In this document: positions 16,087 through 63,217 of the stretch, piece by piece
How the letters are laid out: each line of letters begins with the position of its first letter
How positions within the stretch are numbered: the stretch's first letter is position 1
Origin: Gluconacetobacter asukensis
Lineage (GTDB): Bacteria > Pseudomonadota > Alphaproteobacteria > Acetobacterales > Acetobacteraceae
Direction of reading: 5' to 3'
NCBI RefSeq assembly: GCF_014174375.1
Contig: NZ_JABEQE010000001.1
Span: 248,001 to 312,000, forward strand
DNA: 64,000 nt
Notes under the pieces: generated by a model
Told to the model about the DNA's origin: nothing
Database searches by the model: none
Seen by the model: only the letters and a program-made list of their open reading frames with translations
Translations under genes and position numbers: made by a program

Positions 16087-16250
16087 AAACTGTGTCTGAA
16101 AATGTGGGCTGGTGAGCGAGAGTGCCGCAGGGCGGCACGTCCGGCGTGTGTTTTCGAGCACTGGAGCGGAGCGGTTTATAGGCCGTGAGCACCAGAGCAC
16201 AGAAAACGCGCGTCGGATCGCCACCGGCGCACATTTACAGGCACAGTTTC
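16087..16250 (+). repeat. Structured intergenic element, copy 1 (long form)
   Basis: The left arm at 16087-16112 (AAACTGTGTCTGAAAATGTG...) is complementary to the right arm at 16221-16253. The conserved interior includes GGTGAGCGAGAGTGCCG, GAGCACTGGAGCGGAGCGG and the core CGCGCGTCGGATCGCC. The right arm contains the stop codon of the minus-strand gene ending at 16249, so the element would form a terminator-like hairpin for that gene. The remainder of the 294-base gap at 15955-16248 shows nothing else recognisable. Confidence 0.85.
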
Positions 16251-16839
16251 AGGGATGGGCAGCCTGGACACTCTTCAATCCGGCCGGCACGACGAACACC
16301 GAATCCGGCTGGGTGGCGCGGGTCACCTGCTCCGCACGCACCACGATCCGGTCGTCCTGCATGACCTGGAGCATGACGCCATCGTCGCTGTAGCAGACAT
16401 CGCTCACCCGGCCATCTGTGTCACGGGTGTGCCAGACGGTGCAGCTCTCGCCGGCCACCAGCATCGTCTCGCCGCGCGCCCAGTCCCCCGATGCCCGCTG
16501 CCCCGGCTCCGACAGCGCCGGGCCGGGGGCTGGAATGACCGTACGGGCGCTGTGGGCCTGGTCGATCACCGTCAGGCTTCCCGCCCGATAATCGGTGATC
16601 ATGTAGGTGGCCGACCCGTCAGGGTCGACACGCTGGCGGCGCGTGCCGGCCGACCAGCGCATGCGCTGGTGCTGCACCGGAATCGACGGATCGGGCGATG
16701 CCAGCGCATAGAAGATGTCGACATCCTGCTGCGGCGTGACGAAGGGCGCATTCCCGGCCGCCCGCGCCGCCGGACCGACCGGCAGCACCAGGGCGAGGAC
16801 CAGGCCCGCCAGCGCCAGGCGGCGCGATTCGCCGCTCAT
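16249..16839 (-). CDS. Exported protein of unknown function, paralogue of its upstream neighbour
   Basis: This 196-residue protein has a signal peptide (about residues 1-27, LALAGLVLALVLPVGPAARA). No known function is recognised. It aligns by eye with the product of the gene just upstream: PQQDVDIFYAL against PARDVQVQYAV near the N-terminus, then GESCTVW...CYSDDGVML against GVSCTEW...CVTDDGVIL. The two conserved Cys could form a disulfide. The layout (exported, beta-rich, DDG after the second Cys) resembles DUF4412-type periplasmic proteins, but I am not sure. Its ATG overlaps the upstream stop (ATGA), so the two are coupled. Confidence 0.75.
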   Translation of the reverse strand: MSGESRRLALAGLVLALVLPVGPAARAAGNAPFVTPQQDVDIFYALASPDPSIPVQHQRMRWSAGTRRQRVDPDGSATYMITDYRAGSLTVIDQAHSARTVIPAPGPALSEPGQRASGDWARGETMLVAGESCTVWHTRDTDGRVSDVCYSDDGVMLQVMQDDRIVVRAEQVTRATQPDSVFVVPAGLKSVQAAHP

Positions 16840-17510
16840 TGGCCGGACTGCGCCGCTCCACCGGTTACCGGCTGGCCGCCGCCCACCGCATGCGACGGGG
16901 CGACGCGATGGCGCGTGACCATCTGATAGCCCTCGGGCGGCTGGAACGTGCTGGTCGGAATGGGGCCATAGGTGACGCGCGTCGCCTCCAGCCGGCCCTT
17001 CATGCCGTCGCCATCCACCCCGTCCTCGCGCAGGATCACGCCGTCATCGGTCACGCAGGCGGTCGCCGTCCCGCGCCCCGACACCACGCCCCATTCGGTG
17101 CAGGACACGCCCGCGACCTGCGCCGTGCCCTTGCGGGTAAACTGCATCGACAGATCCAGCAGGAACGGGTTGCGAATCCCGTTATGCGCCTCGAACTGCG
17201 TGTAGACCTTCTGCTTGTTCAGCACGATCGTCACCTGCCGCGTGGTGCGGTTCAGGATGGTCGAGCCCATGGCCTCGGGGCTGTCGATGCGCATCATCCC
17301 GCCATTCGCGGTGAACCAGGCCTCGATCGTCTTGGGGGCCGGGGCGCCATCGGGCTGCACGGCATACTGCACCTGCACGTCGCGCGCGGGTGCCAGCGGC
17401 GGATGGTCGGCATCGGCCTGCGCCCGCGCCGGCTGAATCGCGATGGCCGTCATCAGGCTCACCGCCAGCGCGCCAGCCACGCCAGCGCGCGCCCCTGTCG
17501 GATGGATCAT
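16836..17510 (-). CDS. Exported protein of unknown function, first of a paralogous pair
   Basis: This is a 224-residue exported protein. The start is the ATG at 17510 (MIHPTG), with AGAGGAA ten bases upstream; the longer open frame reading upstream only overlaps aat in another frame. The signal peptide runs to about residue 31 (...AIAIQPARAQA). The mature part contains a strand-rich domain (MMRIDSPEAMGSTILNRTT, QVTIVLNKQKVYTQF) and two Cys in VAGVSCTEWG and ATACVTDDGV. It shares this plan with the product of the next gene, so the pair probably arose by tandem duplication. Function is unknown; a periplasmic or surface role is inferred only from the signal peptide. Confidence 0.77.
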   Translation of the reverse strand: MIHPTGARAGVAGALAVSLMTAIAIQPARAQADADHPPLAPARDVQVQYAVQPDGAPAPKTIEAWFTANGGMMRIDSPEAMGSTILNRTTRQVTIVLNKQKVYTQFEAHNGIRNPFLLDLSMQFTRKGTAQVAGVSCTEWGVVSGRGTATACVTDDGVILREDGVDGDGMKGRLEATRVTYGPIPTSTFQPPEGYQMVTRHRVAPSHAVGGGQPVTGGAAQSGQ

Positions 17511-17556
17511 GATCCCGAATTCCTCTTCCCGCTTCTTCCAATAATGCCCGACGACC

Positions 17557-18261
17557 CTAACCACTTCCGTCGCCAGACGAAATTGCGCCCGCGTCGCTTC
17601 CGCCCCGCATGGCGATAATTTCATGACGGATCGCCTCGCGCTCCACGGGCGAGGACTCGTCCGGCCAGCGGGCCGGCAGTCGCAACGCGGCCGCCAGCTG
17701 TTTCTTGTAGCGCCAGGAGGGAATTTCGACCCCGCCGAACCGCGCCAGATGCTCGGTGCCGAACTGCGTATCGAGCAGCGTGAAGCCACCACGCCGCAGC
17801 CGCGCGACCAGCGAGACCAGCGCCGCCTTCGACGAATCGCGGGCGCGGCTGAACATGCTCTCGCCAAAGAACGCCCCGCCGATCGCCACCCCGTAGAGCC
17901 CGCCCACCAGTTCCCCGTCGCACCAGCTTTCCACGCTGTGGGCATGGCCCAGCGCATGCAGGTCGCAGAACAGGCGGACGATCCGTTCGTTGATCCATGT
18001 CTCTTCCCGCCCCGGCGCGGGGGCGGCACAGGCGCGGATCGTCGCCTCGAAATCACGGTCCGACACGATCTCGAACCGGTCGGACAGCACGGTGCGCAGC
18101 AGGCGGCGGGGGGCGTGAAACCCGTCCAGCGGCAGGATTCCCCGCAATTCCGGATCGTACCATTCCAGGTGCTGCGACCGTGCATCGGGCGCCATGGGAA
18201 ACAGGCCGATCGAATAGGCCTGGATCATGATCTCGGGGGTGATGTCCATCCCGTTGCCCAT
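17557..18261 (-). CDS. aat: Leucyl/phenylalanyl-tRNA--protein transferase
   Basis: Aat attaches Leu or Phe from aminoacyl-tRNA to proteins with an N-terminal Arg or Lys, making N-degrons that ClpS passes to ClpAP. The protein has 234 residues from the ATG at 18261 (MGNGMDITPE); an ATG 12 bases later is also possible. Family motifs seen are YSIGLFPMA, WYDPELRGILPLD, TWINERIVRLFCDLHALGHAHSVE, GGLYGVAIGGAFFGESMFS and LLDTQFGTEHLARFG. clpS and clpA of the same pathway lie 37 kb away in this window. The reading direction is into the paired exported-protein genes, 46 bases downstream. Confidence 0.96.
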   Translation of the reverse strand: MGNGMDITPEIMIQAYSIGLFPMAPDARSQHLEWYDPELRGILPLDGFHAPRRLLRTVLSDRFEIVSDRDFEATIRACAAPAPGREETWINERIVRLFCDLHALGHAHSVESWCDGELVGGLYGVAIGGAFFGESMFSRARDSSKAALVSLVARLRRGGFTLLDTQFGTEHLARFGGVEIPSWRYKKQLAAALRLPARWPDESSPVEREAIRHEIIAMRGGSDAGAISSGDGSG

Positions 18262-18367
18262 CGCGCTCTCTTTCTCTTCATGCCGGGCGTCTGGACACAA
18301 ACCGGCAATAGGTCGAACCTGTTACGGAAGCCGGATGCGCGGCATCCATGGAAAAGAGGTCGATCCC

Positions 18368-19342
18368 ATGTCCCGGACACGCCCCCGCCTGATCGTTTCC
18401 CAGCGCCTGCTGGCCGCCGCCAACGTCCGCATCGCCCGGGATTATGACACGCTGCCGGCCCCGGACCACAAGCTGACGGAAGACGAACTGGTTGCCCAGG
18501 CCCGGGAATTTCGCCCCGATGCCGTGGTGGTGACCAGCAGCACACCGGTCTCCGCCGTCACCGTCGCCGCCCTGCCCGACAGCGTGCGCGTCATCGCCAC
18601 CATCAGCGTCGGCACCGATCATCTGGATATTCCGGCGATCCTCGGGCGTGGCATCGCCCTAACCAACACCCCCGACGTACTGACCGACTGCAACGCCGAC
18701 CTGGCGATGATGCTGATCCTGGCGGCATCGCGCCGGGCGAAGGAATATCTCTCACTGGTCGATTCGGGCTGGGGCCGGACGCTGGGCCTGGACGAAATGC
18801 TGGGCACGCGCGTCACCGGCAAGACGCTGGGCATCATCGGCATGGGGCGCATCGGCCGCGCCGTGGCCCGGCGGGCGCGCGGATTCGAGATGAAAATCCT
18901 CTATTCCAACCGCAGCCGCCTGGCGCCGGAACTGGAAGAAGGCGCCACCTATTTCGCCGACCCGCGCGACATGCTGCCCCAATGCGACGTGCTGAGCCTG
19001 CACATGCCGGGCAGCAAGGAGGGCAAGCCGGTCATGACCGCCGAATTGTTCGGCCTGCTGCCGCGCGGCGCTATCTTCGTCAACGCCGCACGCGGCAGCC
19101 TGGTGGATGAGGGCGCGCTGATCGCAGCCCTGAAGGACGGGCAGCTCGCGGGCGCGGGGCTGGATGTCTGCCGCAACGAGCCGAACCCCGACCCGCGCCT
19201 GCTTTCCCTGCCGAACCTGTTCCTGACGCCGCATGTGGGCAGCGCCACGGTGGAAACCCGCACCGACATGTGCATGCTGGCGCTGGACAATGTCGATGCC
19301 GTCCTGGCCGGCCGCCCGGCCCTGACGCCGGTGACGGGATAA
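18368..19342 (+). CDS. D-2-hydroxyacid dehydrogenase (glyoxylate/hydroxypyruvate reductase type)
   Basis: This is a 324-residue NAD(P)-dependent D-2-hydroxyacid dehydrogenase. The Rossmann motif GMGRIGRAVARRA is followed after a basic patch by YSNRSR, which suggests NADPH preference. Catalytic residues are in VNAARGSLVDE (Arg), CRNEPNPDPRL (Glu) and LTPHVGSAT (His). The domain order fits the GRHPR/GhrB branch that reduces glyoxylate, hydroxypyruvate or 2-ketogluconate; the exact substrate cannot be read from the sequence. The ATG at 18368 follows GAGGT. The gene is divergent from aat with 106 bases between starts. Confidence 0.9.
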   Translation: MSRTRPRLIVSQRLLAAANVRIARDYDTLPAPDHKLTEDELVAQAREFRPDAVVVTSSTPVSAVTVAALPDSVRVIATISVGTDHLDIPAILGRGIALTNTPDVLTDCNADLAMMLILAASRRAKEYLSLVDSGWGRTLGLDEMLGTRVTGKTLGIIGMGRIGRAVARRARGFEMKILYSNRSRLAPELEEGATYFADPRDMLPQCDVLSLHMPGSKEGKPVMTAELFGLLPRGAIFVNAARGSLVDEGALIAALKDGQLAGAGLDVCRNEPNPDPRLLSLPNLFLTPHVGSATVETRTDMCMLALDNVDAVLAGRPALTPVTG

Positions 19343-19347
19343 CGTTC

Positions 19348-19512
19348 ATGCAGGCCGGCCAGACCTTCTTCCTCTGCTGCCTGGCAGGCTGTGCCATGGC
19401 AGTCGCCCTGCTGCTGCTGATGCCGCATTACGCCGGCATGGCCCGCACCCTGATCGGCTTTTACCTTCTCGCCGCGATGGCAGCAGCAACCCGGATGGCT
19501 ATCAAAGCCTGA
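19348..19512 (+). CDS. Small predicted membrane protein
   Basis: This is a 54-residue frame starting 5 bases after the dehydrogenase stop. It is almost entirely hydrophobic, with two likely membrane helices (FFLCCLAGCAMAVALLLLM and TLIGFYLLAAMAAATRM). I recognise no family. It is probably cotranscribed with the dehydrogenase. Support is the hydrophobic pattern, tight spacing and that its stop codon falls in the left arm of a terminator-like element, as for real genes elsewhere in the window. Confidence 0.6.
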   Translation: MQAGQTFFLCCLAGCAMAVALLLLMPHYAGMARTLIGFYLLAAMAAATRMAIKA

Positions 19513-19631
19513 CCGTAAATGCGCGCCGGCGGCGGTGACCGGCGCCACACGGATAATCATCGGTCCCAGGAAGCCTGGCCGGAAACGCACGTCGGATCAC
19601 CGCCAGCGCGCATTTCCGGCCAGGCTGGCCG
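19505..19631 (+). repeat. Structured intergenic element, copy 2 (variant with two competing left arms)
   Basis: The right arm at about 19600-19630 (CGCCAGCGCGCATTTCCGG...) can pair with a far left arm at 19503-19533 (AAGCCTGACCGTAAATGCGC...) or with a near one at 19570-19587 (AAGCCTGGCCGGAAACGC). The core ACGTCGGATCACCGCC is present. It fills the gap between two convergent genes: the stop of the small membrane gene lies in the left arm, and the stop of the aroE-like gene begins one base after the right arm. Confidence 0.82.
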
Positions 19632-20483
19632 TCAGGCGGCCGGCAGGGCCAGGGCTTCGGCCGTGGCCGGACCATGGGCGAACAGCACCGCCTCGCGCAC
19701 CTGGGCCGGGGATGGCCGAATGCCGGTATAGAGCACGAACTGCTCGATAGCCTGCAACACGATCACCTCGGCACCGGAAATGACGGTCTTTCCGCGCGCG
19801 CGCGCCGCGCGCAGAAAGACCGTCTCCGGCGGCAGGGCCACCACGTCGAAGGCGATGGTGCAGGTATCGATCAGCGATTCGGGAAAGGCCAACGCCGCGC
19901 TGTCCGGCCCTTCCATGCCCAACGGCGTCACATTGATCAGCAGCGGCGCCCCCTGCTCCGGCAGGTCGGGGCGCCACTGATAGCCATATTCCTCGGCCAG
20001 GCGCCGGCCCGCCTCTTCATTGCGGGCCACGATCGTCCCGTCCTCGAAGCCGCTGTCGCGCAGGGCCGCCACCACCGCGCGGGCCATACCCCCGCTGCCG
20101 CGCAGCAGGAAGGGCGTCGCCGGGTCGATCCCCCGCTGGGCCAGCAAGGTCTGCGCCGCGATGTAATCGGTATTGTGTCCGACCAGCACGCCATCGTCAT
20201 TGACGATGGTATTGACGCTCTCGATCGCCTGGGCCGACGGTTCCAGGCGGTCGATCAGCGGAATGACGGCTTCCTTGAACGGCATGGAAATCGCGCAGCC
20301 CCGAATGCCGAGCGCGCGCACCCCGCCGATCGCCGCCGGCAGGTCGGTGGTGCTGAAGGATTTGTAGATATAATCGAGCTCCAGCAGCTCATAGAGGCGG
20401 TTATGCAGCCGCGAGCCGGCATTGCCGGGCCTGCCGGACAGCGACATGCACAATTTCGTGTCACGACCAATCGGCGGTTTCAT
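19632..20483 (-). CDS. Shikimate-dehydrogenase-like oxidoreductase (SdhL type)
   Basis: This is a 283-residue AroE-superfamily NAD(P)-dependent dehydrogenase. The N-terminal substrate loop reads KLCMSLSGRPGNAGSRLHN instead of the classic AroE pattern. From memory this matches the SdhL/HI0607 subgroup rather than the aromatic-pathway enzyme. The catalytic Lys (SMPFKEAV) and Asp (GHNTDYIA) are kept, as is the glycine-rich nucleotide loop (RGSGGMARAVVAAL). The ATG at 20483 follows AAGGAGAA. It lies 44 bases downstream of the LacI-type repressor on the same strand, so it may share the autoregulated promoter. The physiological substrate is unknown. Confidence 0.85.
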   Translation of the reverse strand: MKPPIGRDTKLCMSLSGRPGNAGSRLHNRLYELLELDYIYKSFSTTDLPAAIGGVRALGIRGCAISMPFKEAVIPLIDRLEPSAQAIESVNTIVNDDGVLVGHNTDYIAAQTLLAQRGIDPATPFLLRGSGGMARAVVAALRDSGFEDGTIVARNEEAGRRLAEEYGYQWRPDLPEQGAPLLINVTPLGMEGPDSAALAFPESLIDTCTIAFDVVALPPETVFLRAARARGKTVISGAEVIVLQAIEQFVLYTGIRPSPAQVREAVLFAHGPATAEALALPAA

Positions 20484-20527
20484 GTCCGTATTCTCCTTTC
20501 GTTTTTCTTCGTTTTTCCGGGCGGCGA

Positions 20528-21523
20528 TCAGGCCTCGGCGCCCCGTCCCCCCGATCCCCGGGCGATGAAACGCCCCGCCAGCACGACGCGGCGCGTGACG
20601 CAATCGGCGTGATCCAGCCGATCCATCAGCATCGTCACGGCCGTGCGCCCGATTTCCTCCACCGGCTGCTCGATCACGCTCAGCCCGCCGCCGACGAATT
20701 CCATCCAGGGTTCGTTGTCGAAACTCGTCAGGGCCAGGTCCCGGGGGATCTCCAGCCCCAGCGCGTCGGCGACCCGCAACACGCTTTGCAGCATGACGCT
20801 GTTGCTGACGACCAGCGCACTCGGCCGCCGCGACGCATCCTCCAGCAATGCCGTGATCGCCCGCTGGGCCTGTTCGCGTTCATGCGCCACCGGGACGACC
20901 TGCCCGGGGATGCCGCATTCCTCCATGGCACGCCCATATCCATCGCAGCGTTCGCGCCCGGTCACGGTATCGGTGCCGAACAGGCCGGCAATGCGACGAT
21001 GCCCCAGCCGGTGCAGATGCGCGACCAGCTTCGCCGCCATGGCCGCATTGTCGATGACGACGCTGTCGCACGAGGCGTTCGGCGCCGCACGGTCGATCAG
21101 GACAATCGGAAAATCGCTCTCCACATGCGCGATCCTGTCCGCCCCCTCGCGCGTCGGCGCCAGGATGACGCCGGTGACCCGCTCCTCCTGCATCAATTGC
21201 AGATACATCGCCTCTTTTGCCGCATCCTCGTCGGTATTGCAGAAGATGACGCGCAGCCCCCGGTCATAGGCGATGGCCTCGACCGTGCGGGACACGGCGG
21301 TAAAGAACGGGTTACGAATATCGGCGACGATCAGGCCGATGGTATTGGTGTGCCGCGAGCGCAGGCGCCGGGCCGCCAGATTGGGGCGGTACCCCGTCTC
21401 ATGCACCGCCGCCATCACCCGATCGCGCATGTCGGGATCGACGGGACGTCCCGCCAGAACACGCGATACCGTGGCGGGCGAGACCGCCGCCACCCGCGCG
21501 ACATCCTTGATTCCGACATTCAT
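20528..21523 (-). CDS. LacI-family transcriptional regulator of the fructose PTS operon
   Basis: This is a 331-residue repressor. The N-terminal helix-turn-helix and hinge (IKDVARVAAVSPATVSRVL, then TGYRPNLAARRLRS) lead into the periplasmic-binding-protein-like effector domain (TIGLIVADIRNPFFT, SFDNEPWMEF). The ATG at 21523 starts exactly at the DNA-binding domain. It is divergent from the PTS operon with 149 bases between starts, which contain two copies of the same pseudo-palindrome, one of them overlapping this gene's own ribosome-binding site. This predicts repression of both directions; fructose 1-phosphate as inducer is inference from the FruR family. Confidence 0.9.
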   Translation of the reverse strand: MNVGIKDVARVAAVSPATVSRVLAGRPVDPDMRDRVMAAVHETGYRPNLAARRLRSRHTNTIGLIVADIRNPFFTAVSRTVEAIAYDRGLRVIFCNTDEDAAKEAMYLQLMQEERVTGVILAPTREGADRIAHVESDFPIVLIDRAAPNASCDSVVIDNAAMAAKLVAHLHRLGHRRIAGLFGTDTVTGRERCDGYGRAMEECGIPGQVVPVAHEREQAQRAITALLEDASRRPSALVVSNSVMLQSVLRVADALGLEIPRDLALTSFDNEPWMEFVGGGLSVIEQPVEEIGRTAVTMLMDRLDHADCVTRRVVLAGRFIARGSGGRGAEA

Positions 21524-21524
21524 C

Positions 21525-21540: not shown

Positions 21541-21612
21541 TCCACGCGCAGCAGGAAACGGTATCCACGGGAAGTGATTATGCCATGGCACCGTTCGAAT
21601 ATCCTGTCTATT

Positions 21613-28059: not shown

Positions 28060-28599
28060 ATGGATGCGATGAAGGCCCCCCGGCCCACCATGCGGACGAC
28101 GCGCCCCACCCTGCTCTGCTGCGCCGGCGCGGCCCTTGTGGCCGGCTGGAGCATGGCGGCGATACACGCCGCCCAGGCCGCCCCGCGCCACACAACCCGC
28201 GCGCCGGCGCCCGCGACCGGCACCCTGAATGCGCCCGTTTCGTCGTCGCTCGAGCCGGCCGACGCCCGCCGCGACCCGACCGCCGACCCCGACAATCCCC
28301 CGGCCCCGCCGCCGCCCGACGGCTATCAGGTGGTGCAGGACGAGGATGTCACGGCCCAGACCTTCAGCCCGGAGATCGCCGCCCTCCACGGCCCCGGCCT
28401 GCCGTCGATCGAGGCCCGCCAGACCCCGCGCGATTCCCGCGACGTGCCATCGCATTTCAGCGTCTTCGACGTGCCCGTGAAGTTCAACGCCCCGGTGCAG
28501 CCGGCCTATAACGCGGCCTTCACCTATTCGACCTATGGCGGCCAACCCGGACGCGGCATCCAGGCCATCGGCGCCGAAGGCGCCGCCGGAGAGCCGTAG
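28060..28599 (+). CDS. Exported protein of unknown function
   Basis: This is a 179-residue protein with no recognised family. The ATG at 28060 follows AAGGAGAA. A signal peptide or anchor (about residues 17-40, LCCAGAALVAGWSMAAIHAAQA) is followed by a Pro/Ala-rich stretch (DPDNPPAPPPPDGYQVVQD) and a short folded-looking end (SHFSVFDVPVKFNAPVQPAYN, FTYSTYGGQPGRG). Its stop codon lies inside the left arm of a structured intergenic element. The 232-base region upstream (27828-28059), between two divergent starts, shows no recognisable site. Confidence 0.7.
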   Translation: MDAMKAPRPTMRTTRPTLLCCAGAALVAGWSMAAIHAAQAAPRHTTRAPAPATGTLNAPVSSSLEPADARRDPTADPDNPPAPPPPDGYQVVQDEDVTAQTFSPEIAALHGPGLPSIEARQTPRDSRDVPSHFSVFDVPVKFNAPVQPAYNAAFTYSTYGGQPGRGIQAIGAEGAAGEP

Positions 28600-28751
28600 A
28601 GGCCCCGCTGCCGGCAATCCGACGCGCGTTTTCTGCGCTTCACTGCTCACGGCCAAAAAGGCCGCTCCGCTGCGATGCTCAAAAACACACGCCGGACGCG
28701 GCCCGTGCCGGGCCGCTCTTGCTCGGCAGCGGAGCCTCTACGGCTCTCCGG
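28586..28751 (-). repeat. Structured intergenic element, copy 3 (long form)
   Basis: The left arm CCGGAGAGCCGTAGAGGC at 28586-28603 includes the last codons and TAG stop of the upstream gene; its near-perfect inverted copy lies at 28722-28751. The interior is the element in reverse orientation (GCAATCCGACGCGCGTT, then CGGACGCGGCCCG). The element fills the gap between two convergent genes. Confidence 0.85.
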
Positions 28752-28761
28752 CCCCCTTAAT

Positions 28762-36015: not shown

Positions 36016-36064
36016 GCGGACCTTGTATCAAGCCCGCCAACCCGCCGCATCCCCTTTTCGGGGG

Positions 36065-36224
36065 GGCCTGCGGGGAAATGCGCGCTGGCGGCGATCCGAC
36101 GCGCGCTTCCTGTGCTCCGATGCTCACTTCCATCAAGGCCGCTCCGCTTCGGTGCTCGAAAACACACGCCGGGCGCGGCCCTTCGGGCCGCTCTCGCTCA
36201 CCAGCCCACATTTCCCCGCAGGCC
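36065..36224 (-). repeat. Structured intergenic element, copy 4 (long form)
   Basis: The left arm GGCCTGCGGGGAAATGCGCG (36065-36084) has its inverted copy at 36205-36224 (the last bases being TTTCCCCGCAGGCC). The interior carries GGCGGCGATCCGACGCGCG and the GAAAACACACGCCGG block. It lies 49 bases downstream of the bfd stop. It is the one locus where no stop codon is inside or right next to an arm. Confidence 0.85.
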
Positions 36225-36273
36225 CACATGGGTCATGCTGCCACGCACATTCCCAGCGAAGCCGGCAACGGGC

Positions 36274-45293: not shown

Positions 45294-45297
45294 CGCC

Positions 45298-45320
45298 CTC
45301 CCCCCGCCTTCGGGCGGGGG
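45298..45320 (+). terminator. Terminator after the TIGR02300-type gene
   Basis: The stem CCCCCGCC (45301-45308) and GGCGGGGG (45313-45320) with a TTCG tetraloop sits 7 bases after the stop codon. No T-run follows, but a structured intergenic element starts 2 bases later. Confidence 0.6.
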
Positions 45321-45322
45321 CC

Positions 45323-45490
45323 AAAGGCTGATCCAAACCAGCCGCTGCTGGCAATCCAACGCGCGTTTTCTGCGCTTCGCGGCTCACGGCCGACAAGGCC
45401 GCTGCGCTGCGCTGCGATGCTCAAAAACACACGCTGGCCGCGGCCCGTCGGGCCGCTCTTGCTCAGCATCGACTGGTTTGGATCAGCCTT
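45323..45490 (-). repeat. Structured intergenic element, copy 5 (long form)
   Basis: The arms AAGGCTGATCCAAACCAG (45324-45341) and CTGGTTTGGATCAGCCTT (45473-45490) are perfect inverted repeats. The interior is in reverse orientation (GGCAATCCAACGCGCG, CAAAAACACACGCTGG). The right arm directly abuts the folB stop codon. It lies between convergent genes. Confidence 0.88.
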
Positions 45491-45898
45491 TTATCCTTGT
45501 TCGGCGGGCTGCCAGCGTTCGATCTCGACGCCCACGGCATCGAGATCGTCGAAGATGTCCAGCTTCTCGACCCGCACTCGCACCACGTGCACCCGCTCGT
45601 CGGCCAGCACGCCGACCGCGATTCGCTCGGCCAGCGTCTCGACCAGCCGCACATGGCCCTCGGCGATGATCCGCCGCACCATCAGCACGATCCGTTCATA
45701 CGACACGGTGCGGCTCAGATCGTCGCGGCCGACCGCCAGCCCCGGCTCGTCCGGCACGCCGAACGAGATATTGACCCGGATACGCTGGGTGACGCCCTGC
45801 TCGTGGGGATAGATCCCGATATTGGCCTGAAGCACCATGTCCTTCAGGAACACGCGGCGCAACGGCGGCTGAACCGGCCAGGCGGCGAAAATGGACAT
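45491..45898 (-). CDS. folB: Dihydroneopterin aldolase
   Basis: This 135-residue enzyme makes 6-hydroxymethyl-dihydropterin in folate synthesis. Family features are VFLKDMVLQANIGIYPHEQG with the conserved substrate-binding region, and VETLAERIAVGVLADERV with its conserved Glu. The ATG at 45898 (MSIFAAWP) is chosen; the open frame extends upstream only into the antisense-shifted SDR gene. It is 20 bases downstream of a pteridine-reductase-like SDR gene, also in folate metabolism. Confidence 0.93.
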   Translation of the reverse strand: MSIFAAWPVQPPLRRVFLKDMVLQANIGIYPHEQGVTQRIRVNISFGVPDEPGLAVGRDDLSRTVSYERIVLMVRRIIAEGHVRLVETLAERIAVGVLADERVHVVRVRVEKLDIFDDLDAVGVEIERWQPAEQG

Positions 45899-45918: not shown

Positions 45919-46704
45919 TTACTCTTCCGGGGTGTGGCCGGACGGGGGGGCCGGCGACCATTGCAGATGCTGCCCGCCATCCAGCGCCAGCATCTGCCCG
46001 GTCACCGAAGGCAGGCACAGCAGCGACAATGCGGCCCGCGCGACCTCGTCGGGGCAGGTCCCCCGCCCCATCGGCACCGAGGCGCATTGCCGCGCGAACT
46101 GTTCCACGCTCTGGCGCGGGCTGGGCAGCGCGGGGCCAGGCCCGATGGCATTGACCCGGATGCGCCTTGGCGCCAGCGCCAGCGCCATGGTACGCGTCAG
46201 CGTCCATAGCGCGGATTTCGAAACCGTATAGCTGACGAAATGCGGCGTCAGCGACCAGACACGCTCGTCGAGCATGTTCAGCACCATGCCCTCGGCCCCT
46301 TCGGGCACCTGCCCCGCGAAGGCCTGCGTCAGCACGAAGGGCGCGCGCAGATTGGGCTCCAGATGCGCATCCCAGCCAGCACGGGTGGCGTCGAACCATT
46401 CGTCACGCTCGAAGGTGCTGGCATTGTTCACCAGCACCCCGATCGGCCCCAGCTCCGCCCGCACCCGCGCGATCAGCGGCGTCACCTCGGCTTCATGGGC
46501 CAGATCGGCCCGCAGCATGCAGGCACGCTGCCCACGCGCCACGATATCTTCCACCGTCCGCCGGGCCTCATCGTCCCCCGAACGATAATGAATGGCGACG
46601 TCAAAGCCCGCATCCGCCAGCGCCAGCGCAATGGCCCGCCCCAGCCGCACCGCCCCACCCGTCACAAAAGCAACCCGGGGGATCGCCTCAGAAACCGGCC
46701 ACAT
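45919..46704 (-). CDS. Pteridine-reductase-like SDR (FolM type)
   Basis: This 261-residue short-chain dehydrogenase carries the TGGAVRLGRAIA nucleotide motif; an Arg at this place marks FolM/PTR1 pteridine reductases. NNAS motif is LVNNASTFERDEW. The active-site YxxxK is FVSYTVSKSAL. FolM reduces dihydromonapterin and slowly dihydrofolate. Its place next to folB supports a pterin role. Start choice is between the ATGs at 46704 and 46710; the ribosome-binding site AAGAGGGGG is better spaced for 46704. Confidence 0.85.
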   Translation of the reverse strand: MWPVSEAIPRVAFVTGGAVRLGRAIALALADAGFDVAIHYRSGDDEARRTVEDIVARGQRACMLRADLAHEAEVTPLIARVRAELGPIGVLVNNASTFERDEWFDATRAGWDAHLEPNLRAPFVLTQAFAGQVPEGAEGMVLNMLDERVWSLTPHFVSYTVSKSALWTLTRTMALALAPRRIRVNAIGPGPALPSPRQSVEQFARQCASVPMGRGTCPDEVARAALSLLCLPSVTGQMLALDGGQHLQWSPAPPSGHTPEE

Positions 46705-46731
46705 CGTCATCCCCCTCTTCACATAGTCTCC

Positions 46732-46897
46732 AAAAATCTGTTCGAAAACGCAGGCTGGCGAGCGAGAGTGCCGCAAAGCGGCACGCCCGGCGTGTGTTTC
46801 CGAGCACCGGAGCGGAGCGGCCTTGTGGGCCGTGAGCACCGGAGCACAGGAAACGCGCGTCGGATCGCCGCCAGCATGCGTTTACGAATAGATTTTT
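46732..46897 (+). repeat. Structured intergenic element, copy 6 (long form)
   Basis: The left arm AAAAATCTGTTCGAAAACGC (46732-46751) is complementary, with few mismatches, to the right arm at 46869-46897, which encodes the last residues and TAA stop of recR. The interior has GGCGAGCGAGAGTGCCGC, GAGCACCGGAGCGGAGCGG and CGCGCGTCGGATCGCC. Confidence 0.87.
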
Positions 46898-47478
46898 CGG
46901 GCCGTCAAAGCGGCGGCGAGCGTCCCATCATCCAGCACGTCGAGGGCACCGCCCATCGGCACGCCCTGCCCGACGCGGCTGACCGGCACATCATAGGCCG
47001 CCAGACGGTCCTGCAGCCAGTGCGCCGTCGCGGCCCCCTCGACCGTCGCCCCCAGCGCCAGGATCACCTCGCGCACGCCGCCCTCTTCCAGCCGCGCCAG
47101 AAGCGGCGCCACGTTCAGATCGTCCGGTCCGGTGCCCGACAGCGCCGACAGCGTGCCGCCCAGCACCTGATAGACACCGCGATGCACGCAGGCACGCTCC
47201 AGCGCCCACAGATCGCCCACCGTCTCGACCACGCAGACCACCGCCCGGTCGCGCGCCAGATCGGCGCAGATGCCGCAGGGGTCGTGCGTATCCAGATTGC
47301 CGCAGCTGGAGCAGGTCCGCACCGAGCGCGCCGCCTGCTCCATCGCCTGGGCCAGCGGGAGCATGCGCGTCTGCGGCTGGCGCAGCAGCGCCAGCGCCGC
47401 GCGCCGGGCCGAACGCGGCCCCAGTCCCGGCAGACGCGCCAGCAGCGCGATCAGCCGTTCGATGTCCGCTCCGCCCAT
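46882..47478 (-). CDS. recR: Recombination protein RecR
   Basis: RecR acts with RecO and RecF to load RecA at gaps. The 198-residue protein has the helix-hairpin-helix (LARLPGLGPRSARRAALALL), the zinc finger (CSSCGNLDTHDPCGIC), the Toprim domain (VVCVVETVGDLWALERA) and the Walker-B-like end (VSRVGQGVPMGGALDVLDDGTL). It completes the conserved dnaX-ybaB-recR cluster, 25 bases after ybaB. The final residues and stop lie in the arm of a structured element. Confidence 0.97.
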   Translation of the reverse strand: MGGADIERLIALLARLPGLGPRSARRAALALLRQPQTRMLPLAQAMEQAARSVRTCSSCGNLDTHDPCGICADLARDRAVVCVVETVGDLWALERACVHRGVYQVLGGTLSALSGTGPDDLNVAPLLARLEEGGVREVILALGATVEGAATAHWLQDRLAAYDVPVSRVGQGVPMGGALDVLDDGTLAAALTARKIYS

Positions 47479-47503
47479 GCGCCCGCCTGACCCGATCTGG
47501 TTC

Positions 47504-49971: not shown

Positions 49972-50073
49972 GGTGGGAGACCGGACAGACGACCCGGGCG
50001 AAACTCACTGCGGCTGCTTCCTTCCGGACCTGACCGGGTTGGCAAGGCGCCCGTCCGTTGCCGGTCTCCCACC
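49972..50073 (-). ncRNA. ffs: Bacterial signal recognition particle RNA (4.5S)
   Basis: The minus strand carries the invariant SRP domain IV (GGTCAGGTCCGGAAGGAAGC), with the GGAA tetraloop and the A-rich/asymmetric loop region. The ends GGTGGGAGACCGG (at 50073) and CCGGTCTCCCACC (at 49972) pair to close an approximately 102-nucleotide hairpin. It lies 86 bases upstream of the dnaX start on the same strand, a common location. The rest of the gap to 50289 shows no other feature. Confidence 0.95.
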
Positions 50074-57675: not shown

Positions 57676-57724
57676 ATCCGATAACCATGGCTCCGCCCCG
57701 CACCCCAATCATCCGATAACGAAT

Positions 57725-57782
57725 GGGTTTCCAAAGGGCGCCTGCCCTTTGGCGGGGCGTGGGGCAGAGCCCCGCAAAACCC
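57725..57782. repeat. Cruciform-like palindromic element
   Basis: Outer arms GGGTTT and AAACCC enclose two hairpins: CCAAAGGGC/GCCCTTTGG (57731-57752) and GCGGGGC/GCCCCGC (57752-57775). The result is a three-way junction of 58 bases between clpA and the convergent DUF3465-like gene. From memory, similar GGGGCAGAGCCCC elements are dispersed in acetic acid bacteria. Confidence 0.7.
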
Positions 57783-57794
57783 ACCCACACCTAT

Positions 57795-58289: not shown

Positions 58290-59200
58290 GCGTGCTTCGC
58301 CTTCGGCGCCTGCGCTTCCAGTTCGCGGCGCACCGCCGCCATGTCGCGGACGATGTCGGGCGCCGGGTCGGGAATGCTCAGCTTCAGCCCCTCCAGCGCC
58401 GCGATGATCGTTTCCATCACCAGCAGCCGCGCCATCCATTTCCGATCGGCCGGAATCACGAACCACGGGGCGCTGGGCTGGGCGGTATTGCAGATCGCCT
58501 CGCGATAGGCATTGCGGTAGGCATCCCAATGCTCCCGCTCCCGCGCATCCGAGACCGAGAATTTCCAGTGCTTCTCATCCTGGTCGATCCGCCGCAGGAA
58601 GCGTTTCCGCTGCTCTTCCTTCGACAGGTTCAGGAAGAATTTCAGCACCACCGTCCCCTGCCGCGACAGGTAATGTTCGAAATGCCGTATGTCGCGATAC
58701 CGCTCTTCCCAGATCGTGCCATCGCGCAGCGGGGCCGGAATCTTCTGCCGGACCAGCAGTTCGGGATGCACCCGCGTAACGAGAACTTCCTCGTAATGGC
58801 TGCGATTGAAGATCCCGATCCGCCCGCTGGAGGGCGCCGCCAGATGCACTCGCCACAGATAATCATGCGCCAGCTCGACCGGCCCCGGCTGCTTGAAGGA
58901 CGTCACCGTCACGCCCTGGGGATTCACCCCGGACATCACATGCTTGATCATCCCGTCCTTGCCACCGGCATCCATCGCCTGGAAGACCAGCAGCAGCGAC
59001 CAGGTGCCGTTGGCGTACAGCAGCTCCTGCAAGGCCGACAGGCGCTTCACGCCATGACGCAGCATGTGCTTGCCCGCCGCCTTGTCGATATCCGCGATCC
59101 CCGCGATGCGGGTCGGATGGTCCGCCAGGTCGAAACGCGCACCCTCCTCGACCCGGCAGCGATGCAGCACTGTCTTCAGGTCGAGCGCGTTCTCACCCAC
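58286..59200 (-). CDS. Polyphosphate kinase 2 family protein
   Basis: PPK2 uses polyphosphate to phosphorylate nucleotides, or the reverse. The 304-residue protein has Walker A (FQAMDAGGKDGMIKHVMSG), the lid region (GRIGIFNRSHYEEVLVTRVHP) and Walker B (GTVVLKFFLNLSKEEQRKRF). The start is a GTG at 59200 after GGAGGTCTGAC, an unusual but well supported choice since any ATG would be far inside the SDR gene. It lies 2 bases after that gene's stop and overlaps the DUF3465-like gene, so the three are coupled. Confidence 0.93.
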   Translation of the reverse strand: MGENALDLKTVLHRCRVEEGARFDLADHPTRIAGIADIDKAAGKHMLRHGVKRLSALQELLYANGTWSLLLVFQAMDAGGKDGMIKHVMSGVNPQGVTVTSFKQPGPVELAHDYLWRVHLAAPSSGRIGIFNRSHYEEVLVTRVHPELLVRQKIPAPLRDGTIWEERYRDIRHFEHYLSRQGTVVLKFFLNLSKEEQRKRFLRRIDQDEKHWKFSVSDAREREHWDAYRNAYREAICNTAQPSAPWFVIPADRKWMARLLVMETIIAALEGLKLSIPDPAPDIVRDMAAVRRELEAQAPKAKHA

Positions 59201-59202
59201 CG

Positions 59203-59961
59203 TCAGACCTCCAGCCCCCTCGCCACGGCCAGCCCACCGGCCGCCTGACAGGTCGGCATCATCTCGATACGGTTGATGTTGACATGCGCCGGCAGTCCCA
59301 GCACCCACGCCACGGTCTCGGCGATGTCCTCGGGCTGAATCGGGTGCGTGTCCTGATACACGGCGGCCGCCTTGGCATCGTCACGCAGACGCACATTGCT
59401 GAATTCGCTGCCCCCGCACAGGCCCGGCTCCAGGTTCGTCGCCCGTACCCTGGTGCCCAGCAGGTCGCAGCGCAGATTGCGCATGAACTGCGCCACGAAC
59501 GCCTTGGTGCCGCCATAGACGTTGCCGCCCAGATACGGATAGGTGCCGGCAGTGCTGCCGATCGAGACGATATGCCCCCGATCGCGCGCCACCATGCCGG
59601 GCAGCAGGGCGTGCGTAATCTCGACCAGCCCGGCGATATTGGTCTCGATCATCTGCCGCCAGTCCGCGACCGCGCTGTCCTGCGCCTTGCCCATGCCCAG
59701 CGCCAGGCCGGCATTGTTGATCAGGATATCCACTTCCTGCCATCCGTCCGGCAGGCTGGCGGGCAGCGCGCGCAGGGCGGCGCTGTCATCCATGTCCAGC
59801 ACCAGCGGCAGCAGCGCCGTCCCGAGCGACCCGGCCAGCGCCTCCAGCCGGTCGCGGCGGCGCCCGGTGGCAATCACCCGATATCCGTCATGCACCAGCC
59901 GTTCCGCAATCGCCTTGCCGAAACCTGCCGTTGCCCCCGTCACCAAAACAATCTTCGTCAT
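59203..59961 (-). CDS. SDR-family oxidoreductase (YdfG-like)
   Basis: This 252-residue short-chain dehydrogenase resembles YdfG-type 3-hydroxy acid dehydrogenases (oxidation of L-allo-threonine, serine and others). Motifs are TGATAGFGKAIAERL, an Arg-rich loop typical of NADP preference (ATGRRRDRLEALA), NNAGLALG and YGGTKAFVAQFMRNLR. The end (EIMMPTCQ-like INRIEMMPTCQ) also fits YdfG. It is first of a coupled cluster with PPK2 and the DUF3465-like gene. Confidence 0.9.
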   Translation of the reverse strand: MTKIVLVTGATAGFGKAIAERLVHDGYRVIATGRRRDRLEALAGSLGTALLPLVLDMDDSAALRALPASLPDGWQEVDILINNAGLALGMGKAQDSAVADWRQMIETNIAGLVEITHALLPGMVARDRGHIVSIGSTAGTYPYLGGNVYGGTKAFVAQFMRNLRCDLLGTRVRATNLEPGLCGGSEFSNVRLRDDAKAAAVYQDTHPIQPEDIAETVAWVLGLPAHVNINRIEMMPTCQAAGGLAVARGLEV

Positions 59962-60066
59962 CGCCGGATGCTCCCATGGCCATTCTGTCGCGAATATTTA
60001 AGCGCCAATCGCCCCGCCGCCGCAAATCGACATGCCGCGGTTGCAATGCCCGGCGGTTCTTGTTCT

Positions 60067-60663
60067 ATGTACAAGGTGATGTTTCCCCTCTCCCAGACCT
60101 CGGCTGACTCCCTCACCGGTTCCCTGCTTGTCGCCTCCCCGGCCCTGGCGGACAGCCCCTTCGCCCGCACCGTGATCTATCTGTGCGCCCATGTGCCCGG
60201 AGAAGGCGCGATGGGGCTGATCGTCAATCGCCGATTGTCGCAACCAGGCCTGGATGACGTGCTGGAACGGCTCGGCATCGATCCGGTGCCCCCGCGCCGT
60301 CGGATCGCGCTGTGCGCCGGCGGCCCGGTGGATGGCGGCCGTGGCTTTGTGCTGCATTCCTCGGACTGGATCGGCGATAGCAGCCTGTCGGTCGATAATG
60401 GCACGACGCTGACCGCCAGCCTGGATGTACTGCGCGAAATCGCCGACGGCGCCGGCCCCCGCAACGCCCTGCTGGCCCTGGGCCATGCAAGCTGGTGCGA
60501 CGATCAACTGGAAGACGAGATCATCCGCCACAATGCCTGGCTACCCGCCCCGCCCAGCGACGAAATCCTCTTCGGGCTGGACCACGGCGCCAAATGGCGC
60601 CAAGCCCTGGCAACCATCAACATAGACCCGATGCACCTAACCCACCAAACCGGCCGCGCCTGA
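60067..60663 (+). CDS. yqgE: UPF0301 (YqgE/AlgH) family protein
   Basis: This 198-residue protein is of the YqgE/AlgH family, of unknown molecular function. The conserved pattern is LVASPALADSPFARTVIYLC, GAMGLIVNRRL and the C-terminal NAWLPAPPSDEILFG. The ATG at 60067 (MYKVMFP) is used; the next ATG at 60079 has only AAGGTG too close. The stop codon lies in the left arm of a short hairpin element that probably ends transcription. Confidence 0.92.
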   Translation: MYKVMFPLSQTSADSLTGSLLVASPALADSPFARTVIYLCAHVPGEGAMGLIVNRRLSQPGLDDVLERLGIDPVPPRRRIALCAGGPVDGGRGFVLHSSDWIGDSSLSVDNGTTLTASLDVLREIADGAGPRNALLALGHASWCDDQLEDEIIRHNAWLPAPPSDEILFGLDHGAKWRQALATINIDPMHLTHQTGRA

Positions 60664-60709
60664 TCGGAAATGCGCGCTGGCGGCGATCCGACGCGCATTT
60701 CCGATCAGG
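60659..60709 (-). repeat. Structured intergenic element, copy 8 (short form, terminator-like)
   Basis: A perfect 18-base-pair hairpin: CCTGATCGGAAATGCGCG (60659-60676) and CGCGCATTTCCGATCAGG (60692-60709), loop CTGGCGGCGATCCGA, which is the family core. It begins within the last codon and stop of yqgE. A T-rich run (CTCTTCGTTATCTTTTCG) follows, as for an intrinsic terminator. Confidence 0.88.
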
Positions 60710-60796
60710 CTCTTCGTTATCTTTTCGTATCAACGAATCAGAGTGTAACGCCTGCTGGGTTCGGACAACGCCCGAACACTGGCACCTGAGCGTCGC

Positions 60797-61657
60797 TCAG
60801 GCTGCCCAGCGGAAGGCCGGCACGCAGGCCACTGGGGCCAGCCCTGCCGAAGAGGCTTCCGCTTCGGCCAGTGCCGTGTCGTCGCCGATCATCTCCTGGT
60901 GGATGCCGCCCAGCACCCAGCAGCCATCGACCCCTATTGCCTTTGCTCCGCGCATGTCGGTGGCCAGCGCGTCACCGACCGCCAGCACGCGCTCGCGCGG
61001 TACGTCGAGCATGCGCAGGACAGGGCCATAGACCTCCGGATGCGGCTTGCCGATCCAGCGGACGGCGCAGCCTTTCTGCTCATACAGGCTGGCCAGCAAG
61101 CCGGCGCAGATCAGCCGCCGGCCGGCACGGATCACTTCCATATCCGGATTGGCGCACACCATCTTCAGCCCGCGTGCGGCACAGGCGTCCAGCAACGGCA
61201 GATAGGGAGCAGGGTCGCCCTCGCCCTGCTCCGGGTTCGGTCCGGTATTCAGGATGAAATCCGCATCAGCCGGATCTTCGACCCGCTCCAGATCCAGCCC
61301 TTCGAACAGATTATAGTCTTTCGGCGCCCCCAGATGCAGCATCCGGCGCCCCAGACCGGCAAACCAGGGGTCGGTACGTTCGGCCAGCAGGCCGCGCGTA
61401 TATTCGCCGCTGGTCATCACCCCGTCGTACAGATCGTCCGCTATCCCCATGGCACGCAGCCCCTCGCGCACCACCGACACCCGCCGTGGCGCGTTGGATA
61501 GCAGCACGACACGCCGCTCCGCCGCGCGCAGCGCCGCCAGACAGTCCCGCGCCCCCGGATAGGGGCTGACACCATCATGAATGACACCCCAGAGATCGAC
61601 GATAAAACCGTCATACTGCCCGGCCAGCGGCGCGATCCCGTCGAGAAAGCGCATCAT
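60797..61657 (-). CDS. HAD-superfamily phosphatase, class IIA (TIGR01459-like)
   Basis: This 286-residue NagD-like HAD phosphatase has motif I (FIVDLWGVIHDG), motif II (VVLLSNAPRR) and motif III with an acidic motif (IGKPHPEVYGPV, VLAVGDALATDMRGAKA). In motif I the second Asp of the usual DxD is Trp-Gly-Val, a trait of the TIGR01459 family as I recall. The ATG overlaps the pyrD stop by four bases, so the two are coupled. Substrate unknown. Confidence 0.88.
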   Translation of the reverse strand: MMRFLDGIAPLAGQYDGFIVDLWGVIHDGVSPYPGARDCLAALRAAERRVVLLSNAPRRVSVVREGLRAMGIADDLYDGVMTSGEYTRGLLAERTDPWFAGLGRRMLHLGAPKDYNLFEGLDLERVEDPADADFILNTGPNPEQGEGDPAPYLPLLDACAARGLKMVCANPDMEVIRAGRRLICAGLLASLYEQKGCAVRWIGKPHPEVYGPVLRMLDVPRERVLAVGDALATDMRGAKAIGVDGCWVLGGIHQEMIGDDTALAEAEASSAGLAPVACVPAFRWAA

Positions 61658-62727
61658 GCGGTCCCCTTCGCGTCGGCCAGCGTCTCGAACCCTTCGGCAT
61701 TCAGGGCACGAACCGTCTCACGCTTCAGGCGCCGCACAATCCCCGGCCCCTCATAGGCGAAGGCACTATAAAGCTGCACCAGGTCGGCCCCGGCACGCAC
61801 CCGGTCCACGATATCGGCCCCGGTCTCGATCCCGCCACAAGCCACCAGCGTCAGCCGCCCGGCGGCAATCTGCGCCACGTCGCGCAGCACCGTCTCGGCC
61901 AGGGGGCGCAGCGGGCGCCCCGACAGGCCGCCGGTTTCGCCGGCATGGGGGCTGCGCAACCCGTCGGGCCGCGAGATCGTGGTGTTGGTCACGGTCACAC
62001 CCTGCGCGCCACCGGCAATCACGGCCTCGATCACCGGCCCGATATCGTCGCGGGCCAGATCGGGCGCCAGCTTGACCAGCAGTGGCGGCCGGTCGGGATG
62101 GGCCTCGCCGATCGCCTGCAGGATCGCCTGCAGCCGGTCGGCCTGCTGCAGGTCACGCAGGCCGGGCGTGTTGGGCGATGACAGGTTCAGTACAATATAG
62201 TCCGCATAATGCTTCACGCGCCCGACCAGACGGGGATAGTCGCGCTCGGGGTCGGCACCATTCTTGTTGATGCCCAGATTGGCCCCCACCGGCACCCGTG
62301 CGCCGGCGCCATTGCCCTTGGCAGGCAGCTTGTGCAGCCGCGCCATGCGGACCGCGAACCGGTCGATGCCCTGGTTGTTGAAACCCATGCGGTTGATGAT
62401 CGCCCGGTCTTCCGTCAACCGGAACAGGCGCGGACGCGGGTTACCTTCCTGCGGCAGCGGCGTCACCGTTCCGGCCTCGACAAAGCCGAACCCGATCCGC
62501 GCCAGCGGCCGGATCACCTGGGCGTTCTTGTCGAAACCGGCGGCAATGCCGATCGGGTTGGGAAAGCGCAGCCCCATCGCCCGCACCGACAGGGCCGGAT
62601 CGTCCCGGCCCGAGCCATTGCCGCCCCCCAGACCGAGCATGAGGGCATCCAGGGCCAGGCGATGCGCGTCCTCAGGGTCCAGCCGCCGCACCAGCTTCAT
62701 CAGCATATTCGACACGATATCCATCAT
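61654..62727 (-). CDS. pyrD: Dihydroorotate dehydrogenase (quinone), class 2
   Basis: This membrane-associated flavoprotein performs the fourth step of pyrimidine synthesis, passing electrons to quinone. The 357-residue protein has the N-terminal amphipathic tunnel helices ([19 protein letters not shown]), the FMN site ([26 protein letters not shown]) and the active-site Ser in [16 protein letters not shown]. The C-terminal phosphate-binding part is [17 protein letters not shown]. Two in-frame ATGs (62727, 62724) are equal candidates. Confidence 0.97.
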
Positions 62728-62891
62728 GACCCGATTTTCTGCCGTACATCCCCGGACGTTAAAAGGGCCTCGCGGGAAAAACCCCGCCCGGCGCCCGGTC
62801 TCACGATCACGATGAAATTGTCAGAGCCTGCTTGAAAAGGTGGGCCGGTAAGCCCGAGCCACCATTACGCATCACCAATCAGCCGCAAAGA

Positions 62892-63032
62892 GTCTGCCCG
62901 GAAATGTGGGCTGGTGAGCGAGAGGGCCGCGCAGCGGCACGCCCGTCGCGTGTCTCCGAGCACCGAAGCGGAGCGACCTTCAACTCGTAAGCATCGGAGC
63001 GCAGGAAACGGGCGTCGGATCGCCGCCAGCGA
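62892..63032 (+). repeat. Structured intergenic element, copy 7a (long form, degenerate arms)
   Basis: The interior matches the family closely (GGCTGGTGAGCGAGAGGGCC, GAGCACCGAAGCGGAGCGAC, GGGCGTCGGATCGCCGCC). Its right flank (GCGAAGCATCAAAGGATGCC) no longer pairs with the left flank. A further left-arm relic is at 62821-62855. It lies in the 488-base gap between fumC and pyrD, which is otherwise empty. Confidence 0.75.
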
Positions 63033-63052
63033 AGCATCAAAGGATGCCTCTC

Positions 63053-63217
63053 AAAAGCCTGACTGGAAATGGGGGCTGGTGAGCGAGAGTGCCGCGCAGC
63101 GGCACGCCCGTCGTGGGTTTCCGAGCACCGAAGCGGAGCGACCTTCAGGTCGTGAGCATCGGAGCGCAGGAAACGCGCGTCGGATCGCCACCAGCGCGCA
63201 TTTCCAGTCAGGCTTTC
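63053..63217 (+). repeat. Structured intergenic element, copy 7b (long form)
   Basis: The left arm AAAAGCCTGACTGGAAATG (63053-63071) is complementary to the right arm at 63188-63217 (CATTTCCAGTCAGGCTTTC at its end). It is in tandem with copy 7a. The stop codon of fumC (63216-63218) lies at the right arm's edge. Confidence 0.9.

Follow-up and report, generated by a model that had tools for sequence, protein, structure and literature searches.

Short hairpin-forming elements of Gluconacetobacter asukensis adjoin stop codons in a largely fixed orientation and are probably non-autonomous relatives of IS5-family insertion sequences

Copies in the window and distribution of the family

The window analysed here, a 64,000-nucleotide stretch of the Gluconacetobacter asukensis genome (contig NZ_JABEQE010000001.1, positions 248,001 to 312,000), carries nine stretches at eight loci that belong to one family of repeated elements, approximately 165 bp in length, folding into a long hairpin and present in more than 100 copies in the genome. 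All nine stretches listed in an initial annotation of this DNA were found in a check of the window (Table 1). Their description as near-complete does not apply to the copies at 19505 and 60659, nor to that at 62892, and their description as intergenic is roughly correct, except where the arms hold gene ends (recR, the open reading frame (ORF) 28060-28599 and the AlgH-like gene).

Table 1. Copies of the element in the window
Feature	Coordinates	Strand	Context
Full copy	16087..16249	+	3' arm adjoins the TGA stop 16249-16251 (- strand) of ORF 16249-16839, without Pfam match; core 12-mer at 16211-16222
Decayed or short copy, model positions 109-155 only	19505..19631	+	Next to a shikimate-dehydrogenase gene (aroE-like), at its TGA stop 19632-19634 (- strand)
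Full copy	28584..28753	-	Arm toward the upstream + strand ORF (28060-28599) holds its TAG stop 28597-28599; empty allele of relative G001 retains that arm alone
Full copy	36064..36225	-	Neither arm with a stop codon; shorter forms in relatives G010 and G001
Full copy, ATTGCC subfamily	45323..45491	-	5' arm (element orientation) adjoins the folB TAA stop 45491-45493 (- strand); a GC-rich hairpin precedes the other end
Full copy	46732..46897	+	Final recR codons and TAA stop 46882-46884 (- strand) inside the 3' arm
Short hairpin form, model positions 111-155 only	60658..60710	-	An AlgH-like gene has its TGA stop (60661-60663) inside the element; G001 has a full-length copy here
Outer, 3'-truncated unit of a tandem pair (model positions 1-139)	62892..63032	+	
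Inner, complete unit of the tandem pair	63053..63217	+	Next to a fumarase-C-like gene, at its TGA stop 63216-63218 (- strand)

The core 12-mer CGTCGGATCGCC has six matches in the window and 76 in the 4.39-Mb genome, compared to a single match for the reversed control. An nhmmer profile, seeded with the window copies and then iterated, located 138 non-overlapping places in 1.13 Mb of this genome, of which 101 cover more than 120 model positions, while a covariance model (R1, built from alignment A1 of 75 near-full copies, with at most 150 candidates scored per genome) returned 141 matches across the whole genome. The same model produced matches in all 14 Gluconacetobacter genomes, with 9 to 141 apiece, and, under strict filters, in 29 of 150 genomes of the family sample, representing 23 of 102 genera with Gluconacetobacter itself counted in. 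Among the matches listed for the core pattern, those with names are mainly from Gluconacetobacter, with others from further Acetobacteraceae or Rhodospirillales and one labelled Acidobacteria. Weak partial matches were also noted on the plasmids NZ_CP080530.1 of Mesorhizobium (974012-974092) and NZ_CP104971.1 of Phyllobacterium (545545-545604), at positions with no listed gene and with 78-83% identity across 36-49% of one copy. From these two partial matches, the core may be present outside the Acetobacteraceae.

Anchoring at stop codons

The elements had been reported to occur in either orientation, which is true with respect to the + strand; relative to the adjoining gene, however, the orientation is largely fixed. 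The anchoring at stop codons, which extends past the genus, was overlooked at that stage. In the window, a stop codon lies at an arm end at seven of the eight loci: six at the usual end (four in aroE-, recR-, AlgH- and fumarase-like genes, two in ORFs that lack a Pfam match) and that of folB at the opposite end, with none at 36065.

The anchoring counts rest on a custom codon-usage gene finder, which missed recR and chose the ORF on the opposite strand instead. This long open frame (46240-47490, + strand) has no Pfam match and is probably spurious. A total of 128 of the 138 matches qualified by length or by extending to the 3' arm; 113 lay between two predicted genes, and nine inside one. The right-hand gene points at the element in 93 of these 113 copies, and its stop falls within -10 to +7 of the arm end in 68 of the 93, being located exactly at +4 in 35 copies. 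The other 25 right-convergent copies comprise 11 with the stop at 146-174 bases, as expected of outer tandem units, and 14 with the stop elsewhere. On the left side, three of 56 genes pointing at the element stop within -12 to +8. When only the 77 full copies with context are considered, 56 are adjacent to a stop on the right and one on the left, the remainder being classed as other (16) or as tandem or far (4).

As a background, stop codons make up 531 of the 6156 allowed TNA sites (8.6%), an expectation that covers TGA and TAA only, comes from the same gene finder and is pushed too low by missed genes. The excess of stop codons over candidate TNA sites is roughly eightfold and is seen in a single orientation. 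A second method placed the right end at a coding stop in 65 of 99 copies in this genome, in 50 of 66 in other Gluconacetobacter stretches (not an independent figure, as these stretches include orthologues of the former) and in 16 of 21 in other genera, where at least one sequence is counted twice (L101 and L133) and several come from one assembly; the corresponding counts for left ends are 9, 9 and 1 of 21. Stop usage at the element (TGA 51, TAG 9, TAA 8; n = 68) is similar to that of the genome (605, 118 and 112, respectively; n = 835), while a C directly precedes the stop in 54 of 68 cases at the element and in 378 of 835 genome-wide.

Empty and filled alleles

Sorting by length divided 198 orthologous cluster pairs (flanks at least 88% alike, many 95-99%, with empty calls from flanks holding other copies excluded) into 39 of empty type, 94 filled and 65 other. 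When the empty-type alleles were read singly, some proved to be relics and not clean sites, and others had uncertain frames or were unclear. At seven loci the stop pre-exists in the empty or near-empty allele (28586, L041:6769, L043:6873, 16093, L244:12504, L044:13394 with its counterpart, and L272), following our own sorting by locus of 34 pairs, from which relics and low-score frames were excluded. The stop at 16093 is TAG in the empty allele and TGA in the filled one, and the empty allele of L272 is also without part of the left flank. At L265:7530 of G010, the element provides the stop, two codons ahead of that in the empty allele. L049:9740, also considered as a case of an element-supplied stop, was dropped, as no predicted gene points at that end and the frame scores are low.

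The locus at 28586 illustrates these states. In G001, the gene end joins the right flank and a single arm is present, while G010 and G. asukensis (G000) have the element and its two arms; the stop reads TAA in the former, where TTA faces it, and TAG in the latter, where CTA faces it. Further relatives have no element there, which suggests that the G001 state is ancestral.

Arms, fold and covariation

The outer arms had been described as different between loci. They do vary, but they are not unrelated, since they share a common terminal repeat, GAGSCTGnnnGnAAAT. Seven window copies have arms of 20-30 positions with 18-28 matches, measured up to the third mismatch. Among all 83 copies, unselected, the two arms of a locus agree at positions -4 to +12 in 58-82 copies, against 21-78 expected (for example, 66 against 21 at position 3, and 80 against 40 at position 11). 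Agreement is at chance level from position -6 outward, and identity drops sharply at the base beside the stop. Mismatches at inner positions 13 and 15 of the left arm are kept family-wide. From the loci at 28586 and 46732, the arms could be taken to arise always by inverted copying of the gene end; the family arm consensus rules this out as a general origin.

The consensus fold consists of an outer arm helix, a side hairpin (chiefly of two sequence modules, the GCGGCCC and GTGCCGC types), a long inner helix and a tip that is rich in internal loops and almost invariant in sequence among copies. In alignment A1, 97.7% of 4568 cells are paired, compared to 85.7% when shuffled; two-sided changes occupy 516 cells against 124.7 in shuffles; and the covariation score of 0.369 (0.137 shuffled) is attained by none of 500 shuffles and is lost when partners are slid by 1-3 columns. 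A covariance test, as the initial annotation had proposed, returns a very strong covarying excess over shuffles. Because related rows inflate the shuffle control, orthologous loci were taken as a second test. This test used 37 orthologous filled pairs (flanks 90-99% alike, mostly from three species), limited to elements of the same length with 14 or more arm matches. Their 629 arm cells were divided into 519 that are the same, 25 with a one-sided change, 29 with two-sided changes that preserve the match, none with two-sided changes that lose it, 18 in which a mismatch became a match, 33 in which a mismatch was kept and 5 at gaps. The pairs are not independent, as the same species recur among them, and changes on both sides are concentrated as blocks in few loci. 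One such block changes from AGTTTCTGCCC to AGTTTTGGGCC on both arms between close species with flanks that are 98% alike. The earlier observation that pairing is kept while sequence varies exceeds both the shuffle and the slide controls, and is also seen between orthologous loci.

Whether this reflects selection for structure, as had been proposed, is a separate matter. Selection stands as one of two explanations, but the arms co-change in blocks between close species, and it is not the sole explanation because intramolecular copying or replacement of the element also yields block changes in both arms.

Core turnover and tandem units

Orthologous loci with flanks that are 94-99% alike often have a much more divergent core. 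For 8 of the 17 orthologous pairs compared, and 7 of the 13 loci, a paralogue from the same genome is nearer in its core than the orthologue by more than 2 points, in a test that sets about a hundred paralogues against one orthologue and is biased toward the paralogue. The core of L052:15071, for instance, is 100% identical to that of L039:11376 and 83% identical to that of its own orthologue. At L052 and 46738 the core has changed and the outer arm is retained; since the L039:11376 arm nearly equals the L052 arm, whole-element replacement is possible at L052. At 46738 and L075, the G. asukensis core agrees with that of G001, which places the change in G010. As the arms change jointly while cores are swapped, locus-specific covariation need not imply selection on an RNA. 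At two loci the element is reversed in a relative (L033/L274 and L244/L265), and the short form at locus 36042 seems to have lost an internal segment between TTTCC repeats.

Among 25 same-strand neighbouring matches, the gene-distal unit stops before model position 150 in 20, three of which are single copies broken by deletion. Locus L231 of G013 (9767-10424) contains four head-to-tail units, the outer ones consisting of the left flank and a truncated element, and the last being complete and located at a stop codon; this array may have arisen by template switching at the hairpin. It had come up, with its TCA flanks, as a match in the search for an autonomous element. Opposite the two tandem copies at L049:14688-15008 of G. 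asukensis, locus L244 of G001 carries a bare hairpin with two matching arms, a very short loop and no core, which is either a deletion relic or an arms-only element.

Relationship to known elements

Taken as a whole, these data are best explained if the elements are miniature inverted-repeat transposable elements (MITEs), that is, non-autonomous relatives of IS5-family insertion sequences of the IS1031/IS12528 type, and we consider this probable. A MITE, a REPIN (a hairpin built of repetitive extragenic palindromic (REP) sequences) and a functional RNA or DNA module had been put forward initially; the first is best in line with the IS12528-like terminal repeats, the empty sites and the patchy distribution. 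As in other MITEs, terminal inverted repeats are present, the element is short, multicopy and dispersed (141 matches), its insertion is polymorphic, and its length by itself argues for a lack of coding capacity.

On sequence resemblance, an IS5-type parent is the leading, though not proven, candidate for the origin. The GAG-type terminal repeats resemble those of the IS1031/IS12528 group (GAGCCCTTTTGGAAAT versus GAGCCTGTTTGGAAAT; the ISLrh repeat is GAACCTGTCTAGTATCT), sharing the GAG start and a similarity over some 16 bases (14 of 16 between the TTT arm variant and an IS12528-family copy). An IS12528-family element of Acetobacter ascendens has GAGCCCTTTTGGAAATTC at both ends and is flanked by TAA on both sides, while an IS5 element of Polymorphobacter (GAGnCCGTTTGAGAATG, flanked by TCA on both sides) also resembles the arms. 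TNA-type flanks are found in some copies, and IS1031-group members are described as preferring TNA targets and making a 3-bp repeat (PMC12016507). An IS5-family relative is present in the same genome, where the transposase family PF13340 matches six times, with an internal stop in one case. One of these IS5 copies, L283, has an open frame of 278 codons and begins with GAGCCTGTTTTAGAATG after TTA, and its two ends agree at 12 of 16 positions; its best plasmid match is 79.7% to an element annotated as IS5 family, with 68.8% to the IS12528 family. The ends of the remaining IS5 copies are less like the arms. Unlike the IS1031/IS12528 group, the element has no transposase, a long conserved multi-helix core, arms that covary by locus and strand-fixed anchoring at stop codons.

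Several observations weigh against a simple derivation of this kind. A 3-bp target duplication is only weakly visible: flanking trinucleotides match in 16 of 76 copies, against a shuffled mean of 9.7 and a maximum of 16 in 2000 shuffles, and in only 2 of 62 without TCA/TCA; the left flank reads TCA in 21 copies of this set and the right flank TGA, in gene sense, in 33, and the set was obtained by dropping 7 of 83 copies for poor arms, which favours high identity (the arm-agreement counts were repeated on all 83). TAG, which is not a TNA site, is undepleted at the element (9 of 68, against 118 of 835 in the genome), to which completion of the codon by the first G of the arm may contribute. A search of 3.49 Mb of sequence for an autonomous element bounded on either side by arms of close similarity (14 or more of 18 positions matching, together with an open frame of 180 codons) was negative. 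The difference between alleles at 28586, one pre-existing arm and a new inverted copy of the gene end, is not predicted by plain insertion, and pure TNA insertion fails to account for the roughly eightfold stop excess in one orientation.

No Rfam family matches the window copies at gathering score, and a relaxed threshold around one copy gave four matches, all of which are far below it. The sole window match at gathering score is a bacterial small signal recognition particle RNA (RF00169) at 49973-50069 (- strand). Base counts in the flank columns of 83 copies show no T-run beyond either arm, as would be found in an intrinsic terminator. A literature search found no description of these elements in titles or abstract starts (top matches in open-licence PMC text), and a core 13-mer gave, among the matches listed, one unrelated archaeal paper as its sole match. 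To our knowledge, the cores of Correia and ERIC (enterobacterial repetitive intergenic consensus) elements are unlike that of the present element.

Correia and ERIC elements are likewise MITE-like and form hairpins in mRNA; ERIC at 3' ends alters transcript levels via RNase E, and Correia is cut by RNase III (PMC10969869). An orientation-fixed anchoring in exact register with the stop is not described in the section of PMC10969869 consulted. The GTAG and CGTC families of REPs and bacterial interspersed mosaic elements (BIMEs), of which CGTC repeats are mainly alphaproteobacterial, are also palindromic, multicopy and near gene 3' ends, and sometimes supply the stop codon (Di Nocera 2013, PMC3733652). 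REPs are, however, 20-40 bp long and carry an unpaired tag, with a CGTC stem of 8-9 bp (PMC3733652), whereas the present element is about 165 bp long, has its CGTC inside a paired helix and resides in a genome without RAYT (REP-associated tyrosine transposase). Assignment as a CGTC REP was rejected, as the core CGTC pairs within helix 3, while the definition calls for an unpaired terminal CGTC, an 8-9 bp stem, a loop of 4-5 bases and a CCA tail. Closeness to gene ends is thus known in kind for REPs, but exact register and fixed orientation are not described in the sections of PMC3733652 consulted.

Proposed mechanism and alternative explanations

In the MITE interpretation, a transposase supplied in trans would recognise the arms as terminal inverted repeats and insert the element at CTNA-like sites. 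In most surviving copies, the 3' end of the element (on the core strand) is in exact register with the stop of a convergent gene, usually a stop that the empty allele also has. Ectopic conversion or re-insertion would then homogenise the core and leave the outer arms particular to each locus, the likeness of the two arms being maintained by hairpin-templated copying, whole-element replacement or selection. Least certain is the suggestion that the long hairpin, read as a 3' untranslated region (UTR), would delimit the mRNA end, as a barrier or as a site of processing; this would account for the survival of copies past stop codons as opposed to operon gaps. Among possible functions, such a 3'-UTR barrier is the likeliest.

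The covariation may also have a mutational origin, with template switching across the hairpin during replication, of a kind that has been described (PMC8794818), copying one arm to the other and so keeping the pairing without selection. This is a credible account, if one to which we would give slightly less than an even chance: the block changes occur simultaneously on both arms between close species, and the empty allele at 28586 carries the gene-side arm only, but the inner mismatches at left-arm positions 13 and 15 persist, though copying would erase them, and several blocks are equally explained by whole-element replacement.

It is more doubtful that the element is a host-recruited 3'-UTR RNA, such as a Rho-dependent terminator or a 3'-end protector, with position and orientation kept by selection whatever its origin. 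The one-sided anchoring (68 of 93) and the covariation above shuffles would agree with such a role, as would the C-rich gene-sense strand (58 C and 46 G per copy, compared to 49 of each over the 150 bases past all stops). Furthermore, among the 39 stop-adjacent copies followed by a co-directional gene, two lie within fewer than 18 bases of its start, both overlapping that gene as predicted; of the 458 co-directional gaps without an element, 186 are shorter than 18 bases. A merely harmful insert would, however, equally avoid operon gaps. In 81 of 83 copies, the more stable of the two folds is that of the core strand (mean -113 kcal/mol, versus -95 for the complement), which is antisense to the gene; this disfavours a simple mRNA role also as the last step of the mechanism proposed above. 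Moreover, the wobbles at columns 24/160, 68/139 and 70/137 (48, 68 and 56 of 75 copies, respectively) become mismatches on the gene-sense strand, and presence of the element differs between close species.

Transposition that targets stop codons as such, by insertion at the gene end in one direction, with the second arm an inverted copy of the flank and the core an exchanged cassette, appears improbable. Insertion into pre-existing hairpins such as terminators, the old stem forming the locus-specific arms, is very unlikely. It would account for the bare hairpin at the G001 site where G000 has two copies, and for the copy at 45323, which lies behind a GC-rich, terminator-like hairpin (approximately 45294-45322; G007 and G005 have a hairpin followed by a T-run and no element), but the empty site at 28586 has a single arm, L041:6769 and L043:6873 are without a matching arm pair, the arms have a family consensus, and the idea does not hold as a general rule. 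We give the least credence to a REPIN or BIME mobilised by a RAYT (TnpA-REP) transposase, which would fit the palindromic, multicopy nature and the position behind genes, as for REPs (PMC3733652), but Y1_Tnp has no match in this genome, the only one searched besides 14 control genomes, five of which were positive.

Implications

The element resembles the remnant of a transposon whose ends match each other unusually well, and it represents a natural case of textbook covariation within mobile DNA, in which close relatives allow selection on an RNA to be told from the copying of hairpin arms. Its anchoring beyond the genus poses a testable question, namely how a short mobile DNA reaches exact register with gene ends. 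For the acetic acid bacteria, it means that a hairpin has been added behind many genes at once.

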